A program made the position numbers and the translations under genes. This document shows, piece after piece, positions 17,498 to 29,036 of a stretch of 64,000 nt of DNA. The DNA lies in the NCBI GenBank assembly GCA_029238515.1, contig JAQWFW010000034.1, forward strand, positions 62,001 through 126,000. The letters run 5' to 3'. How positions within the stretch are numbered: position 1 is the stretch's first letter; every line of letters starts with the position of its first letter. The stretch is from Flavobacteriaceae bacterium (GTDB lineage: Bacteria > Bacteroidota > Bacteroidia > Flavobacteriales > Flavobacteriaceae). The notes below the pieces were generated by a model, which searched no databases, had not been told where the DNA came from, and saw only the letters and a program-made list of their open reading frames with translations.

Positions 17498-17575
17498 GGT
17501 GGTTGTAGCTCAGTTGGTTAGAGCGCCTGATTGTGGTTCAGGAGGTCGTCGGTTCGAGACCGATCTTCCACCCCA
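17498..17575 (+). tRNA. tRNA-His (GTG anticodon)
   Basis: A full cloverleaf can be drawn. The D arm starts at 17508; the anticodon stem CCTGA/TCAGG encloses loop TTGTGGT with anticodon GTG at 17533-17535; the T arm is GTCGG/CCGAT with loop TTCGAGA; CCA is encoded at 17573-17575. The extra G at 17498 (G-1) faces C73, the identity element of tRNA-His. The acceptor stem GTGGTTG/CTTCCAC has two adjacent U-U oppositions (5-68 and 6-67), which is unusual. Confidence 0.96.
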
Positions 17576-21757: not shown

Positions 21758-23134
21758 TTAGATATGAATAACTTCGTCATAAGCGTCTGCAACCGCTTCC
21801 ATGACCGCTTCACTCATTGTAGGGTGTGGATGTACTGTTTTAAGTACTTCGTGTCCTGTAGTCTCTAATTTACGTCCTAATACCGCCTCGGCAATCATAT
21901 CGGTTACTCCAGCGCCAACCATATGGCAACCGAGCCATTCGCCATATTTGGCATCAAAAATAACTTTCACAAAGCCCTCGGTGTTTCCACCAGCACTGGC
22001 TTTTCCAGAGGCAGAAAATGGGAATTTGCCTACTTTTATGTCGAGTCCTTGCTCTTTGGCTTGTGCTTCAGTCAGTCCAACACTTGCAATTTCTGGACTA
22101 CAATACGTACAGCCCGGAATATTTCCATAATCTAATGCTTCAATATGATGCCCCGCAATTTTTTCAACACATAATATCCCCTCTGCGGAAGCGACGTGGG
22201 CGAGGGCAGGACCTGGAGTTACATCACCAATGGCATAATAACCAGGAATATTGGTTTGATAGAAATCATTGACCAAAATTTTGTCGCGATCTGTTACAAT
22301 TCCGACATCTTCCAAACCAATGTTTTCTATATTTGTTTTGATGCCAACTGCAGAAAGAACAATGTCAGCAGAAAGTGTTTCTTCGCCTTTTTTAGTTTTT
22401 ACAGTGGCTTTGACTCCTTTTCCAGAGGTATCTACTGCAGTAACTTCGGTAGAAGTCATAATCTTGATTCCACTTTTCTTGAACGAACGCTCCAGTTGTT
22501 TCGAAACTTCTTCATCTTCAACAGGAACGATGCGTGGCATGTATTCAACAACTGTAACTTCGGTGCCCATAGCGTTGTAGAAATACGCAAATTCTACTCC
22601 TATAGCACCAGAACCTACAATGATGAGCTTTTTCGGTTGTTTTTCTAATGTCATTGCTTGGCGATATCCGATCACTTTTTCGCCATCTTGAGGTAAGCTT
22701 GGTAGCTCGCGTGAGCGCGCACCAGTGGCAATAATGATGTGATCGGCAGTGTATTCTGTACCATCGACATCTACTTTTTTGCCTGGTTTTAGTTTTCCGT
22801 AACCAGAAATGACGTCAATCTTGTTCTTTTTCATCAAAAACTGAACGCCTTTGCTCATCCCCTCAGCCACATTACGGCTACGGTTTACAACGGCATCAAA
22901 ATCTTTGTCATATTCTTTAACTTTCAGGCCATAATCAGCTGCATGTTTTAGGTATTCAAAAACTTGTGCTGATTTTAAAAGAGCTTTTGTAGGAATACAG
23001 CCCCAGTTGAGACAAACGCCCCCAAGACTTTCTTTTTCAATCACAGCAGTTTTTAGTCCTAATTGCGAAGCGCGAATTGCAGTTACATATCCGCCTGGAC
23101 CACTTCCCAAAACAATCAAATCATATTTACTCAT
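21758..23134 (-). CDS. lpdA: Dihydrolipoyl dehydrogenase (E3), second copy
   Basis: A 458-residue paralogue of the enzyme at 2047. FAD motif GSGPGG (11-16), redox Cys41/Cys46 in GGVCLNWGCIPTK, NAD motif VGSGAIGVEF, YAIGDVTPG, and His437/Glu442 in VHPHPTMSEA. It differs from the first copy around the disulfide (NWGCIPT against NVGCIPS), so the two are not a recent duplication. No E1/E2 gene is adjacent. A TAAATTTG box on the minus strand lies 32 nt upstream of the start. Confidence 0.95.
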   Translation of the reverse strand: MSKYDLIVLGSGPGGYVTAIRASQLGLKTAVIEKESLGGVCLNWGCIPTKALLKSAQVFEYLKHAADYGLKVKEYDKDFDAVVNRSRNVAEGMSKGVQFLMKKNKIDVISGYGKLKPGKKVDVDGTEYTADHIIIATGARSRELPSLPQDGEKVIGYRQAMTLEKQPKKLIIVGSGAIGVEFAYFYNAMGTEVTVVEYMPRIVPVEDEEVSKQLERSFKKSGIKIMTSTEVTAVDTSGKGVKATVKTKKGEETLSADIVLSAVGIKTNIENIGLEDVGIVTDRDKILVNDFYQTNIPGYYAIGDVTPGPALAHVASAEGILCVEKIAGHHIEALDYGNIPGCTYCSPEIASVGLTEAQAKEQGLDIKVGKFPFSASGKASAGGNTEGFVKVIFDAKYGEWLGCHMVGAGVTDMIAEAVLGRKLETTGHEVLKTVHPHPTMSEAVMEAVADAYDEVIHI

Positions 23135-23166
23135 ACCTTAGTATCTTTAGTCGTTGTTAGAAGTTG

Positions 23167-23174
23167 CAAATTTA
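23167..23174 (-). promoter_or_regulatory. -7 box for lpdA (second copy)
   Basis: Minus-strand TAAATTTG, 32 nt upstream of the start codon; no clear -33 TTG. Confidence 0.45.
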
Positions 23175-23236
23175 CAAAACCTAAATCTATAAATAAAGCA
23201 GAAATGTACTAAAGTAAAGGGAAGTTTTTAAATTAT

Positions 23237-23632
23237 TTATGATTTTTTGAAGTCTAAACTCAAAGAGTTGACACAGTAACGCGTTCCTGTATCGGTAGGG
23301 CCATCATTGAACACATGACCCAAATGTCCATCACAAGAAGAACAGATAATTTCGGTGCGCATCATACCGTGACTTTTGTCTAGAATATATGTTATATTTC
23401 TTTTGATGGAAGCATCAAAACTTGGCCAACCACAACCGGCATCAAACTTGGTATGACTTTCGAACAAAGGATTTTGACACGCTGCGCAATGGTATATTCC
23501 GTTTTCAAAATGCATATTGTATGCACCAGTGAAGGGTCGTTCTGTACCTTTTTTTCGTAGTATGGTGTACTGAGCATCGGTAAGCTCTTTTTTCCAATCT
23601 TTTTCTGCTTTTATAACTTTTTTTAGACTCAT
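23237..23632 (-). CDS. msrB: Peptide-methionine (R)-S-oxide reductase, cytosolic form
   Basis: A 131-residue MsrB that reduces the R form of methionine sulfoxide. Zinc-binding CAAC and CSSC pairs, CGWPSFDA and GHLGHVFNDGP, and the catalytic Cys in RYCVNSLSL are all present. There is no signal peptide, so it should be cytosolic. It overlaps the upstream, lipoprotein-type msrB by 4 bases (ATGA-type junction) and is its paralogue; the pair probably repairs methionine on both sides of the inner membrane. Confidence 0.94.
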   Translation of the reverse strand: MSLKKVIKAEKDWKKELTDAQYTILRKKGTERPFTGAYNMHFENGIYHCAACQNPLFESHTKFDAGCGWPSFDASIKRNITYILDKSHGMMRTEIICSSCDGHLGHVFNDGPTDTGTRYCVNSLSLDFKKS

Positions 23633-24102
23633 TTTTTAGGTATAAATTTCAATGCTGCACCATTGATACAATGGCGTTTTCCAGTAGTTTTTCTTGGCCC
23701 ATCATTGAATACGTGCCCCAAATGTCCACCACAAGTGGCACAGTGTTCTTCTGTACGCGCAACTCCAATGTTGTAATCTACACTAAAAGCAACATTACCT
23801 TCTATTTCACGGTCAAAACTTGGCCATCCAGATCCAGAATTAAATTTATGTTCGCTTTTAAACAGTGGTGTAGAGCAAGCAGCACAAACATAAGTTCCAG
23901 GGCTGTAGTTTTTGTCTAATGGACTTGAAAAAGCACGTTCTGTGCCTTGTTTTCGTAACACGTAGTATTGTAAATCGGTAAGTTCGGCCTTCCACTCGGC
24001 ATCAGTTTTTTGAATTTTGAATGATTCTTCTTTTTGTGCTTCAGTTTTACACGCATTCAACAAAACAAAAACAATAACTAAGATTAAATTTTTATGATTC
24101 AT
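23629..24102 (-). CDS. msrB: Peptide-methionine (R)-S-oxide reductase, lipoprotein form
   Basis: A 157-residue MsrB with an N-terminal lipoprotein signal (MNHKNLILVIVFVLLNACKT; lipid-modified Cys18). The enzyme core has zinc CAAC and CATC pairs, SGWPSFDR, GHLGHVFNDGP and catalytic Cys in RHCINGAAL. It should act in the periplasm or at the outer membrane. It is the first gene of a two-gene msrB operon and is divergent from an M48 lipoprotein peptidase across a region holding a 16-bp palindrome. Confidence 0.94.
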   Translation of the reverse strand: MNHKNLILVIVFVLLNACKTEAQKEESFKIQKTDAEWKAELTDLQYYVLRKQGTERAFSSPLDKNYSPGTYVCAACSTPLFKSEHKFNSGSGWPSFDREIEGNVAFSVDYNIGVARTEEHCATCGGHLGHVFNDGPRKTTGKRHCINGAALKFIPKK

Positions 24103-24154
24103 GGGATATTTTATTGGATAAAATTAATTATTTTTAAGGTTAAGCGAATACTTT

Positions 24155-24170
24155 TCACAAAACTTTGTGA
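24155..24170. promoter_or_regulatory. Palindrome between msrB and M48 genes
   Basis: TCACAAA-AC-TTTGTGA is a perfect 7-2-7 palindrome placed 52 bp from the msrB start and 61 bp from the M48 start. The location between divergent genes suggests an operator; no regulator is known. Confidence 0.4.
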
Positions 24171-24231
24171 CTTTTTGATGTTTTTGGTGTCTAACACTAT
24201 GGAATGCTTTTTGTTTATGAATTGAAAACCT

Positions 24232-25056
24232 ATGATTATGAAAACAAAGATTTTATTTTTTTTGATGCTTTTTTTGGCCATTTCTTGTGCTACAAACCCT
24301 TTTACCGGGAAGAAAACATGGGCTTTGGTACCAAATTCTCAGATTTTACCAATGGCTTTTGCGCAGTATGATCAATTTCTCACCGAAAACAAAGTGATTA
24401 CAGGCACCGCCGAGTCTGATATGGTTAAGCGTGTTGGTCAGCGAATTTCGGCCGCCGCAAAGCGTTGGCTTGATGCTAATAATTATCAAGGATATCTAAA
24501 AGACTACAAATGGGAATACAATTTGGTAGATGATGAAACAGTGAATGCTTGGTGTATGCCAGGTGGTAAAATTGTGTTTTACACAGGTATTATGCCTATT
24601 GCTGCAAATGAAACTGGTGTGGCTGCTATTATGGGGCACGAGGTGGCACATGCATTGGCCAACCATGGCCAACAACGGATGAGTGCTGGGCTACTTCAGC
24701 AAGCGGGGGCAGTTGCAGGTAATGTCGCAATCAAAGATGAAAAACACAGAAACATATTCAATCAATCTTATGGGATTGGAACTACAGTTTTGGGGGTATT
24801 GCCGTTCAGTCGTGCGCATGAAACCGAAGCCGACAAAATAGGGGTGTACATTATGGCTATTGCAGGGTATAACCCCGATGAAGCATCTAAGCTTTGGGAA
24901 CGTATGAAAGCCAATAACAATGGAAAACAAGGTCCCCCTGAGTTTTTAAGTACCCATCCATCCAATGATTCGCGAATTGCAAATTTGAAGGCATTAGCAC
25001 CTGTTGCACGTGCCGAAGCTCAAAAATTTGGGGTGACAAGCTTTCGCTCATATTGA
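24232..25056 (+). CDS. M48 family metallopeptidase, lipoprotein
   Basis: A 274-residue peptidase with a lipoprotein signal ending LFLAISC. The zinc motif HEVAH is near residue 140 and the third ligand Glu lies in RAHETEADKIGVY; FLSTHPSNDSRI is the usual M48C ending. Such proteins (YcaL/LoiP-like) degrade misfolded envelope proteins. ATG codons at 24232 and 24238 are both possible; the second gives the cleaner signal. Divergence from a secreted msrB suggests a shared envelope-stress role, by inference. Confidence 0.9.
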   Translation: MIMKTKILFFLMLFLAISCATNPFTGKKTWALVPNSQILPMAFAQYDQFLTENKVITGTAESDMVKRVGQRISAAAKRWLDANNYQGYLKDYKWEYNLVDDETVNAWCMPGGKIVFYTGIMPIAANETGVAAIMGHEVAHALANHGQQRMSAGLLQQAGAVAGNVAIKDEKHRNIFNQSYGIGTTVLGVLPFSRAHETEADKIGVYIMAIAGYNPDEASKLWERMKANNNGKQGPPEFLSTHPSNDSRIANLKALAPVARAEAQKFGVTSFRSY

Positions 25057-25084
25057 ATTATATTAAAATAAATACTTAAATTAG

Positions 25085-25114
25085 AAGCTGCTTATAAATG
25101 AGCAGCTTTTTTTT
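25085..25114 (+). terminator. Terminator whose T tract abuts the MFS start codon
   Basis: Stem AAGCTGCT (25085-25092)/AGCAGCTT (25101-25108), loop TATAAATG, T8 ending at 25114. The MFS gene's ATG is 25115, with no spacer. It ends the M48 transcript but leaves no room for a promoter between it and the MFS gene. Confidence 0.85.
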
Positions 25115-26431
25115 ATGAAAAAACTTGAAAGGGGAAGTAAAAAACTCATTAATGCATGGGCATTTTACGACTGGGCCAACTCCGTATATCCACTAGTCAT
25201 CAGCACTGCTGTCTTTCCAATTTATTACAGCAGTATGGCAAATTCTTTTGCCAATGTTGAGGGTGATATATCGTTTTTAGGGGCACTTTGGGATCCTACT
25301 GTACTGTATGATTATACCTTGGCAATTTCATTTCTAATGGTAGCATTTTTTTCTCCTATCCTCTCAGGAATTGCAGATTATACAGGCAACAAACTAAAAT
25401 TTTTAAAAGGGTTTTGTTTGTTGGGTTCTTTGTCTGTAATGTCACTCTATTTTTTTAATAGTGAATCTACGCTTTGGTTAGCTCTTTTATGTACTGTTTT
25501 TGCAAGTATAGGTTTTTGGGGAAGTATTGTTTTTTATAACGCCTATTTGCCAGAAGTAGCTTTTCCTGAACAACAAGACAAAGTAAGTGCAAAAGGATTC
25601 ATCTATGGTTATGCGGGTTCGGTATTGTTGCTGATTTTTAGTTTGATTTTGGTCCAAAAACCAGATTGGTTTGGTATTACAGATCCAACTTTAGCACCTC
25701 GTATCACATTTGTTTTGGTAGGACTTTGGTGGTTTGGGTTTGCCCAAATTGCATACCGCCGTTTGCCCAATAATGTTTTTAATCACAAACCTGAAAAAGA
25801 CTATATCTGGAAAGGATTTTTGGAACTTAGAATGGTTCTGAAATCATTGTCTCAGCACACACGATTAAAATACTTTTTAATTGCCTTTTTCTTTTTGAGT
25901 GTTGGGGTTCAAACCATCATACTTATGGCAGGGATTTTTGGAAGTGAAGAACTAGGTTTGCCTACTTTAAATCTAATTTTAACCATATTGATTGTTCAGA
26001 TTGTGGCTATACCAGGGGCTTATTTATTTTCTAGATTATCTGAAAAAATCGGGAATCTTACGACATTAAAAATAACGCTTTTAATTTGGGGTGGAGTTTG
26101 TTTTATTGCCTTTATTTTGGATAAAAATCAACCAAATGTAGATTACTATTTTTATGTCATGGGGGTTGTTTTGGGCTTTGTTTTAGGCGCTACACAGTCC
26201 TTGACACGTTCTACCTATTCCAAACTTTTACCAGAAACGCACGATCATGCTACATATTTTAGTTTTTATGATGTCACCGAAAAAATAGCCATTGTTTTGG
26301 GAATGATCATCTTTGGACTTTTAATTTCGATTACAGGATCAATGCAATATTCTGTTTTGGCACTTGCTTTTTTCTTCATGGTCGCATTTGTTGTGCTTTA
26401 CAAAATAAAAAGAACTACACACGTCTATTAA
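25115..26431 (+). CDS. MFS transporter, UMF1/Atg22-like
   Basis: A 438-residue polytopic protein with about 12 hydrophobic helices. The N-terminal NAWAFYDWANSVYPLVI is the signature of the UMF1/Atg22-like branch of the major facilitator superfamily, and GATQSLTRSTYSKLLPETHD is also characteristic. The substrate is unknown; relatives in yeast export amino acids from vacuoles. The start codon directly follows a terminator-like hairpin, so expression must come by read-through or from a promoter inside the upstream gene. Confidence 0.87.
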   Translation: MKKLERGSKKLINAWAFYDWANSVYPLVISTAVFPIYYSSMANSFANVEGDISFLGALWDPTVLYDYTLAISFLMVAFFSPILSGIADYTGNKLKFLKGFCLLGSLSVMSLYFFNSESTLWLALLCTVFASIGFWGSIVFYNAYLPEVAFPEQQDKVSAKGFIYGYAGSVLLLIFSLILVQKPDWFGITDPTLAPRITFVLVGLWWFGFAQIAYRRLPNNVFNHKPEKDYIWKGFLELRMVLKSLSQHTRLKYFLIAFFFLSVGVQTIILMAGIFGSEELGLPTLNLILTILIVQIVAIPGAYLFSRLSEKIGNLTTLKITLLIWGGVCFIAFILDKNQPNVDYYFYVMGVVLGFVLGATQSLTRSTYSKLLPETHDHATYFSFYDVTEKIAIVLGMIIFGLLISITGSMQYSVLALAFFFMVAFVVLYKIKRTTHVY

Positions 26432-26549
26432 TTACTTTACTTCAAATCTTAGCTTGGCACAAGAATTGTCTTTATGGCTGTGTTCAGTGGTGAGTTTTTC
26501 ACATTTAAGAAGATAACCTAGATTGAACACAAAAGATAAACCCTAATAT

Positions 26550-26571
26550 ATTCTGTTTTGCATGACAGAAT
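26550..26571. repeat. Inverted repeat just upstream of lon
   Basis: ATTCTGT (26550-26556) and ACAGAAT (26565-26571), 8-nt spacer, ending 14 nt before the lon ATG. It could be an operator for stress control or a leader hairpin. It does not resemble CIRCE. Confidence 0.4.
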
Positions 26572-26585
26572 GACTTATAAATCAT

Positions 26586-29036
26586 ATGAATAACCCAAAA
26601 TATAAATTACTTGACAGTTTGTCACTTCAAGATTTTGATGAAAATTCAGAATTGATTCCATTGATGACTACCGAAGACGAAGAAGTGATCAAGAATGAAA
26701 TACTCCCAGATTCTATACCTGTCCTTTCATTAAGAAACACAGTGCTTTTTCCTGGAGTAGTAATCCCCATCACTGCTGGTCGCGACAAATCCATTAAATT
26801 GATTAATGATGCCAACAAAGGTTCCAAAGTCATTGGTGTTGTAGCACAAAAAGATGAAAGCGTAGAAGATCCAAAATTCGATGATATTCACAGTATAGGA
26901 ACAGTAGCACGTATTTTGAAAGTTTTGAAAATGCCAGACGGTAACACCACGGTAATTATTCAAGGCAAAAGACGTTTTGAAATTACAGAATTGGTTTCAG
27001 AAGAGCCGTACATGACAGCCAAAATAAAGAGTGTTGATGAACTAATTCCTCAAAAAAATGATGGAGAGTTTAATGCTGCTATAGAGTCAATCAAAGATTT
27101 ATCTTTAGAGATCATCAAGCAAAGCCCCAACATTCCAAGTGAAGCATCGTTTGCTATAAAAAATATTGAAAGCAATTCGTTTTTGATCAACTTTGTATCC
27201 TCCAATATGAATATTTCTGTAGTAGAAAAGCAGGAACTATTGGAGATTAATAATCTGCATCAACGTGCCCTAAAAACACTCAAGCACATGAATGTTGAAT
27301 ATCAACGTTTGGAGCTTAAGAATGATATTCAGTCCAAAGTTCAGCACGATATGAATCAGCAGCAGCGTGAGTATTTTCTTCAACAGCAAATCAAAACCAT
27401 CCAAGAAGAATTGGGCGGTGTTAGCTACGAAGAAGAAATTGAGGACATGAAAAAGCGCGCCAAAACGAAACAATGGGACAAAAAAATAAAAGCGCATTTT
27501 GAAAAAGAAATTGGAAAACTTCAACGCATGAATCCACAAGTTGCCGAGTATTCTATTCAGCGCAATTATTTGGACTTATTTCTTGATTTGCCTTGGGATC
27601 ATTTCAGTCAAGATAATTTTGATTTAAAACGTGCTCAACGCATTTTGGATCGTGATCATTTTGGACTCGATGAAGTTAAGCGTCGAATTATAGAATATTT
27701 GGCTGTTTTGAAACTTCGAAACGATATGAAATCTCCGATTTTATGTTTGTACGGCCCTCCAGGAGTTGGTAAAACTTCTTTGGGCAAATCCATTGCAGAA
27801 GCTTTAGGTAGAGAATATGTACGCATATCTCTTGGTGGCTTGCGCGATGAAGCAGAAATTCGAGGGCACCGCAAAACATACATCGGCGCTATGCCAGGGC
27901 GAATTTTACAAAGCTTAAAAAAAGCAGGAACATCAAATCCAGTATTTGTTTTGGATGAAATAGATAAATTGTCTAATTCTCACCAAGGTGACCCCTCATC
28001 TGCGATGCTCGAAGTGTTAGATCCTGAACAAAACGCTGAGTTTTATGACAACTTTTTGGAAATGGGCTACGACCTTTCAAAAGTCATGTTTGTGGCAACC
28101 TCAAACAGTTTAAATACAATCCAACCTGCACTTTTGGATCGTATGGAAATTATCAATGTTACAGGATATACCATTGAAGAAAAGGTACAAATTGGTAAAA
28201 AATATCTTTTGCCCAAACAACTTAAAGAACATGGTCTTTCTACAAAAGACCTAAAAATCGCACAACCTCAATTAGAAAAAATAATTGAAGGATACACAAG
28301 AGAATCAGGTGTTCGAGGTCTCGAAAAACAAATCGCAAAAGTGGTACGCTATGCAGCCAAAAATATTGCGATGGAGGAGGACTACAACAAAAAAGTGTCC
28401 AATGAAAATCTTATCGAAATTCTTGGTACACCAAAACTTGAGCGTGACCGCTACGAAAACAACAATGTGGCTGGTGTGGTTACAGGTTTGGCTTGGACAC
28501 GAGTAGGCGGTGATATTTTGTTTATAGAATCTATACTTTCTAAAGGTAAAGGTACTCTTAATGTTACTGGAAATCTTGGAAAAGTGATGAAAGAATCGGC
28601 TACGATAGCCATGGAATACATCAAAGCCAATGCCGATGATTTTGGCATTAAAAGTCATGTCTTTAGCGACTATAATGTGCACATACACGTTCCAGAAGGC
28701 GCAACGCCTAAGGATGGTCCTAGTGCTGGGATTACGATGCTGACGTCTTTGGTATCTTTGTTTACACAGCGAAAAGTAAAAAAGAATATCGCCATGACGG
28801 GTGAAATCACGTTACGTGGAAAAGTACTTCCAGTAGGGGGGATTAAAGAAAAAATATTAGCTGCAAAACGAGCAAAAATCAAAGAAATCGTACTCTCAAA
28901 AGCCAACAAACGTGATATAGATGAAATAAAGGCAGAGTACCTCAAAGGGTTAACTTTTCATTATGTTTCCGAGATGCGTGAAGTTATTGAAGTCGCCATT
29001 ACCAAAACAAAAGTAGCACATGCCAAAACGCTCTAG
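26586..29036 (+). CDS. lon: ATP-dependent Lon protease
   Basis: An 816-residue LonA. The N-terminal substrate domain runs to about 310, including [17 protein letters not shown]. The AAA+ domain has Walker [10 protein letters not shown] (near 390), Walker [10 protein letters not shown], and sensor residues. The C-terminal serine protease domain has catalytic Ser in DGPSAGITM and the Lys of [16 protein letters not shown]. It degrades damaged and regulatory proteins in the cytosol. It stands alone with a palindrome just upstream and porQ downstream. Confidence 0.96.

Follow-up and report, generated by a model that had tools for sequence, protein, structure and literature searches.

The Atg22/UMF1-like transporter gene in the window, the whole 64,000-nucleotide stretch of Flavobacteriaceae DNA that was analysed, starts directly behind a terminator-like hairpin, and this hairpin is probably the terminator of the upstream M48 metallopeptidase gene overlapping the promoter of the transporter, in such a way that incoming transcripts should stop and the transporter's own transcripts should pass. 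It is most likely not a new kind of signal, but an unusual and conserved combination of two known ones.

Organization of the M48–transporter junction

The features of the junction, in coordinates of the window, are as follows.

24232–25056, + strand: upstream gene, M48-family metallopeptidase, lipoprotein-like (PF01435, 5.5e-34; open reading frame)
25053–25055, + strand: possible -33 TTG, weak, 21 nt 5' of the box (read from the sequence)
25077–25084, + strand: candidate -7 promoter box TAAATTAG of the TAnnTT type (sequence, and 43 loci with the element described below)
25083–25094, + strand: hairpin 5' arm AGAAGCTGCTTA (direct reading, scan, folds)
25089–25090, + strand: predicted transcription start (from the box position -12 to -5 in PMC9723704)
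25090–25114, + strand: predicted 5' leader of the transporter, about 25 nt (from the box)
25095–25098: hairpin loop TAAA (direct reading)
25099–25110, + strand: hairpin 3' arm TGAGCAGCTTTT (scan, folds, pair counts)
25107–25114, + strand: T8 tract, putative M48 terminator tract that would double as the final 8 nt of the transporter leader (direct reading)
25115–26431, + strand: Atg22/UMF1-like MFS transporter (PF11700, 3e-68; PF07690, 2.1e-21)

The sequence of the junction is directly observed. The 12-bp hairpin spans 25083–25110 with four G-C among its 12 pairs, and the G+C core of its 5' arm begins at 25087. A sequence-only reading of this DNA had described a hairpin with a T8 tract directly abutted by the ATG at 25115–25117; this is correct, and direct reading, terminator scan and fold agree on it. 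That reading also held that later in-frame ATGs would cost the protein its conserved N-terminus, and this is borne out: ATG 25115 is the sole in-frame ATG ahead of the conserved WAFYDWANS motif, which the next one would delete, and the distance from ATG to motif is 39 nt in all ten same-genus loci (L082–L091), the same as in the window. On the sequence, ATG 25115 is the right start codon of the transporter. The next gene after the transporter is lon, and the NCBIfam models for BepA and LoiP score far under their cut-offs against the M48 gene. On the - strand at 23237–24102 of the window two adjacent reading frames (131 and 157 aa, with a 4-base overlap) read as methionine sulfoxide reductase B proteins related to each other, and the second, the one that was tested, matches PF01641.

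The hairpin as a probable terminator

A stable G+C-containing hairpin lies directly 5' of a T-tract and close behind the M48 stop codon, as in an intrinsic terminator. It lies 30 nt past that stop, and 10 of 13 other co-directional terminators are found at 24–27 nt. The whole hairpin folds at -15.4 kcal/mol, and the 84-nt fold around the site has z = -3.41, with an equally good fold in 1 of 200 shuffles. A terminator scan of 22000–28500 gives six sites against 5.2 (sd 2.1) in shuffles, so that such sites are not in excess of chance in this region, and the hairpin at 25083–25110 has the most pairs (12) of the six. Its position is rare: the window and 20 stretches of the same-genus genome G006, together 464 kb, contain 14 intergenic terminators that are co-directional, and no other of these has its core 8 nt or less from a start, the second nearest lying at 18 nt, where the starts of genes other than the transporter are approximate and come from a crude gene finder based on open reading frames.

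A known Rfam leader or riboswitch was rejected, the weak matches being far below gathering: in the whole window the gathering threshold is reached only by a tRNA at 17499–17572 and by nothing at the hairpin site, where the best sub-threshold match is the L20 leader with 22.1 bits against 58.7 required. The idea that the stem sequence is unique to this junction was also dropped, since the stem motifs with a T-tract occur in 34 of 149 genomes of the family, some of these occurrences being the M48–transporter junction itself, and in 6 of 13 near relatives.

Candidate promoter box and predicted start

The main promoter box in Bacteroidetes, that of the flavobacterial sigma-A promoter, is TAnnTTTG. 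Transcript starts mapped in F. psychrophilum put this box at positions -12 to -5, where boxes of another class (SM5, TAnnTTGY) are found as well, and the median leader of this species is 24 nt (PMC9723704). For B. thetaiotaomicron, PMC7366714 gives a median leader of 32 nt and purines above expectation at starts. In the window TAAATTAG stands directly 5' of the stem, and its end is 2 nt from the G+C core. With the published position applied, +1 should fall at 25089 or at the next purine, 25090, within the 5' arm, and the predicted leader of 25–26 nt is close to the F. psychrophilum median. The sequence-only reading had seen no space for a promoter or a leader, which is probably wrong in view of this box and leader. 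The box agrees with TAnnTT. Its last two letters, however, match neither TAnnTTTG nor TAnnTTGY, and position 7 is A, not T or G. Promoter activity at the box and the exact start site are predictions from sequence. A scan for the sigma-70 consensus found 17 sites against 20.4 in shuffles, with no excess, as expected for the phylum.

Register of box, hairpin and T-tract in relatives

The junction was compared in 110 loci, the best 80 from a search of genome contigs and 30 kept from 60 genomes (52 of them with a match), where L081 is the window's own. A usable start is present in 105 (L057, L065 and L100 were dropped for lack of the start motif, L037 and L110 for lack of an ATG), with M48 at most 150 nt upstream in 64, farther off in 11 and no M48 match in 30. 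L088 has the same upstream DNA as L001 and was left out of the tree, yet is counted among the 64; the distinct loci number 104. The compound element was defined as a box 0–3 nt before the G+C core together with at least 5 T of 8. Such a comparison of the hairpin in relatives had been proposed by the sequence-only reading, and it finds the element in 43 of the 104 distinct loci, window included, following M48 adjacency. Loci of Polaribacter, Flavivirga jejuensis and Winogradskyella eximia, of which cultures exist, are among those with the element.

The element loci were picked in two steps, first by a hairpin near the start (57) and then by box score (43 of the 57), and the invariance of the box and the pairing percentage are therefore partly built in. 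The fixed register itself is directly observed in many loci: between the end of the box and the core there are 3 nt in 21 of the 43, 2 nt in 18 and 0 nt in 4. The T, A, T and T columns of the box are invariant in 43 of 43 loci, which were selected with the box score, and the fair comparisons for the box count are with other terminators and with shuffled DNA. The 464 kb contain 65 other terminators, of which 14 are inside predicted genes, and the same scoring finds the box at 3 of the 65; base-shuffled upstream DNA passes in a mean of 7.0 of 43 loci (maximum 15). In a separate scan the box is in register at about 4 of 181 terminators elsewhere, after removal of 6 rows that repeat the M48–transporter junction, against 40 of 49 at that junction.

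Exact TAnnTTGY boxes among the 43 loci are TATATTGC (10 loci), TATATTGT (9) and TAAATTGT (4); TAAATTGT is the box of the same-genus loci L082, L084 and L085, and TATATTGC, an exact SM5 box, is that of the Tenacibaculum-type loci. A -33 TTG at spacer 21 is barely seen, in only 4 of 42 element loci against about 0.6 per position, and no general -33 element was found across these 42. Near the predicted start, all 43 element loci have a purine in aligned column 15, which for most rows is the sixth base past the box; a simple count of the sixth base past the box gives 37 of 43.

One stem C and its partner G are invariant in the alignment of the 43 loci, and at the base of the stem the letters are conserved along with the pairing. 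Eight of nine stem pairs have changed on both sides and 98.2% of cells pair, a percentage owed to the selection of loci for hairpins; double changes number 66 cells against 19.1 in shuffles, and none of 500 shuffles is as high on any of five measures. The informative remainder is that the orthologous place, as its sequences read, holds a paired stem of varying sequence in so many loci.

These data bear on two other explanations. A plain M48 terminator might happen to end at the start codon with an accidental A+T-rich box-like sequence beside it, for which the A+T-rich DNA, the roughly 7 of 43 shuffled loci that pass and the enrichment of looser A+T patterns ahead of other close terminators (below) can be cited, but coincidence is made very improbable by the box score, which 43 of 57 loci with a hairpin pass and only 3 of the 65 background terminators do, by the single register and by the many tree branches involved. 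The inverted repeat could alternatively be a DNA operator for a dimeric regulator at the start site, as a palindrome at a promoter with CCGTTC/GAACGG half-sites in many loci would allow; since half-site spacing varies widely, the paired changes preserve RNA pairing and a T-tract follows, an operator is scarcely credible.

Linkage of the hairpin to M48 and of the box to the transporter

The link of the element to M48 is directly observed. It is present in 42 of the 64 loci with M48 within 150 nt, in 1 of 11 with M48 farther off and in none of the 30 without an M48 match. The upstream DNA of these 30 loci covers 130 nt in L053, 1,467–1,918 nt in 11 and about 3 kb in 18, and M48 may thus lie farther off in some of them. 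On the tree of the 104 transporters the element needs 20 changes, and independent pairs give about 9 in agreement with M48 adjacency, 0.1 against and 5 without difference (median sign-test p 0.004). The element is dispensable, since 22 of the 64 M48-adjacent loci (the duplicate L088 included) are without it; the M48-adjacent loci L070, L074, L075, L076 and L079 have terminators without a box in register. Exceptions are L019, which has the element though the M48 gene ends 376 nt upstream, and L040 and L055, where box and hairpin lie beside M48 and the transporter starts about 130 and 90 nt beyond the hairpin. In L005 an apparent tandem duplication of the transporter (about 1638 and 3001) has the element at the first copy, directly behind M48, and not at the second.

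Persistence of the box without the element is a direct observation too. A looser box, TA..TT[TGA] with its end 20–55 nt ahead of the ATG, occurs in 19 of 21 M48-adjacent loci that are without the element, where shuffles average 9.5 and none of 300 is as high. Among the loci without an M48 match it occurs in 26 of 30, against a shuffled mean of 11.1 and again none of 300. Where M48 is farther off and the element missing it occurs in 6 of 10, with no excess over shuffles (mean 4.8; 99 of 300). Exact TATATTTG is found 18–21 nt ahead of the start in five loci without an M48 match (L035, L039, L046, L053 and L061). In L034, L045, L094, L041, L049 and L050 another terminator lies right behind the M48 stop and the hairpin at the transporter is absent or decayed; TATATT is kept there in L034, L045 and L094 despite this, and L041 and L050 have no clear box. 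Within the genus of the window, most of the hairpin is gone from L086, L087 and L089 while TAAATT is kept; TAAATT is also seen by eye in L090, and L091 has nothing in register. From the looser-box counts and the loci where M48 has its own terminator we infer that the hairpin follows M48, and that the box follows the transporter.

The sequence-only reading had offered two sources of transporter expression, M48 transcripts that read through and a promoter located in the M48 gene, with the hairpin acting as attenuator or start-codon mask. In favour of this, 64 of 105 loci have M48 no more than 150 nt upstream, and some members of the genus have lost the hairpin, which would permit read-through. 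It is nevertheless quite improbable, given the -7 box in register ahead of the hairpin and the exact TATATTTG in the five loci without an M48 match, L053 having just 130 nt upstream. Both alternatives become unneeded if the box is a promoter, because it would provide a start in the 5' arm and a normal leader; an attenuator would be conceivable with a true start a few bases upstream of the predicted one. Masking of the start codon is rejected as unsupported, the AUG being outside the hairpin stem and unpaired in the folds.

Fold energies and proposed mechanism

In the preferred reading the hairpin and T8 would be the intrinsic terminator of the M48 gene, overlaid by the transporter promoter. 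Polymerase arriving from M48 would copy the full 5' arm, the hairpin would form against the U-tract and read-through would stop. As the -7 box ends 2 nt before the G+C core, transcription of the transporter would begin inside the 5' arm, predicted at 25089/25090, and RNA from this promoter would not contain the A-tract and the first G+C pairs. The leftover hairpin would be weaker and no longer touch the U-tract, and for this reason the own transcript should pass, giving an mRNA with a leader of about 25 nt.

In calculated folds RNAs starting at 25087, 25088, 25089, 25090 and 25091 have -11.1, -6.9, -4.7, -4.0 and 0 kcal/mol, respectively. Medians over the 43 loci are -14.5 for the whole hairpin, -7.0 from the fifth and -5.0 kcal/mol from the sixth base past the box. 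From the sixth base the values range from -13.9 to -1.1, weaker than -5 in 20 of 43; where the stem is long, the hairpin remains stable after truncation, at the -13.9 end of this range. A difference in termination efficiency between M48-derived and own transcripts is what this folding model would predict. The truncation model hinges on a start predicted to about 2–3 nt: with a start 2–3 nt earlier most of the core would be retained, and a start at 25087 would keep all of it.

That same promoter with a start 2–5 nt earlier, at 25085–25087, would give an mRNA whose 5' end carries the whole G+C core, and the hairpin could then lower or regulate expression or protect the 5' end. Box–hairpin spacing permits this earlier start, the RNA from 25087 would have a fold of -11.1 kcal/mol, and the stem base is kept in sequence besides pairing. 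We consider a 5'-terminal attenuator or stabiliser rather unlikely, since the box position in PMC9723704 places +1 later, and since absence of the element from all 30 loci where no M48 was found is not expected of a device that regulates just the transporter.

Possible occurrence at other gene junctions

On weaker evidence, the data suggest that the arrangement of a terminator over a promoter recurs at other flavobacterial junctions. A covariance model of the element has matches with E <= 0.01 in 75 of 120 Flavobacteriaceae genomes. Its 60 best places are the M48–transporter junction in 18 of the top 20 (one being the window) and in 20 of the next 40. In 12 of the remaining 20 of these 40, a co-directional ATG lies no farther than about 77 nt away and its frame stays free of stops over 70 codons or as far as the stretch extends, in an uncontrolled count; the 12 include four racemase-like genes (L211 by PF01177; L215, L218 and L222 from the N-terminus) and a gene for a pseudouridine synthase (L212, PF00849). 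Within the top 20, L177 has the box TATTTTGC, 3 nt, and a CCGTTC hairpin with T-tract at about position 1500, shortly 5' of a class II tRNA-synthetase gene (PF00587, PF03129), which we take to be glycyl. Applied to the window's own genome, the model scores the M48–transporter site at E 3.8e-5; five other matches are weak, with E 0.3 and above, and one of them (L196; G000:C29:5955–5993, - strand) precedes a racemase-like gene.

A similar hairpin and T-tract with a TA..TT-like box is seen close before a racemase-like (murI-like) gene in L196, L211, L215, L218, L222 and L138, where L196 and L211 were called by Pfam and the others by N-termini or neighbouring sequence. Another hairpin whose T-tract meets the ATG directly is found on the - strand of L020 (about 515–536) and L028 (about 590–606); the gene in L020 encodes a DUF1572/DinB-like protein (PF07609) and TAAATTAG overlaps the stem there.

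A count that is free of the model, over 1.80 Mb, finds TA..TT 0–5 nt ahead of the core for 9 of the 34 terminators with a co-directional start within 60 nt against 10 of 215 others (p = 0.0002), and in 6 of 21 against 7 of 144 when restricted to three genomes (p = 0.002). The 34 exclude, from 35 close terminators, the L005 copy of the M48–transporter junction, and the 0 to 5 nt range is the one quoted here, as a range of -2 to 4 was chosen after seeing the data. Recurrence elsewhere is suggestive only, because strict published boxes occur at 0 of 35 close co-directional terminators outside the M48–transporter site in the 1.80 Mb and because the control AA..TT is enriched too (11 of 34 against 19 of 215, p 0.0006); the control AT..TT is enriched less (7 of 34 against 13 of 215, p 0.01). 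It is conceivable, if doubtful, that the Flavobacteriaceae have a recurrent boundary device in which an upstream terminator lies over the next start site, the hairpin tells transcripts apart by their origin and a polymerase that has terminated would already sit on the following promoter and could restart there, and which serves racemase (murI-like), tRNA-synthetase and pseudouridine-synthase genes as well.

Comparison with known systems

If the preferred reading holds, a seemingly impossible gene start becomes a compact device in which about 40 bp end one gene, insulate the next and start it, and in which hairpin strength would be set by where the RNA begins. Confirmation would alter the annotation of starts, operons and "attenuators" in flavobacteria, users of short leaders, since a hairpin of terminator type that meets a start codon may be the sign of a promoter and not of attenuation. 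Among the matches listed from the open-access literature, which are mostly abstract openings, no description of a terminator over a promoter was found.

Recycling of RNA polymerase after termination (PMC6978380, PMC6978322) is alike in that a terminator beside a promoter could pass polymerase to the next gene; by this analogy recycling is a possible consequence at the M48–transporter junction, and not evidence for the arrangement. Attenuators and other 5' cis-regulatory RNAs share a terminator-like hairpin ahead of a gene, but the hairpin of the window tracks the upstream gene in the comparison and has no Rfam match at gathering; neither an alternative structure nor a leader peptide was seen at the hairpin in minimum-energy and centroid folds, where a start inside M48 would mean a longer leader. 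The junction resembles the flavobacterial sigma-A promoters (TAnnTTTG, and TAnnTTGY of SM5, PMC9723704) in its TAnnTT box, the right distance and a predicted leader of normal length, and differs from them in the A of TAAATTAG at position 7 and the weak -33. With intrinsic, Rho-independent terminators it shares the G+C-containing stem, the short loop, the T-tract and the place 30 nt past the upstream stop; unlike them, it has the predicted start site of the following gene inside its 5' arm, and a T-tract that reaches right up to the start codon of that gene.
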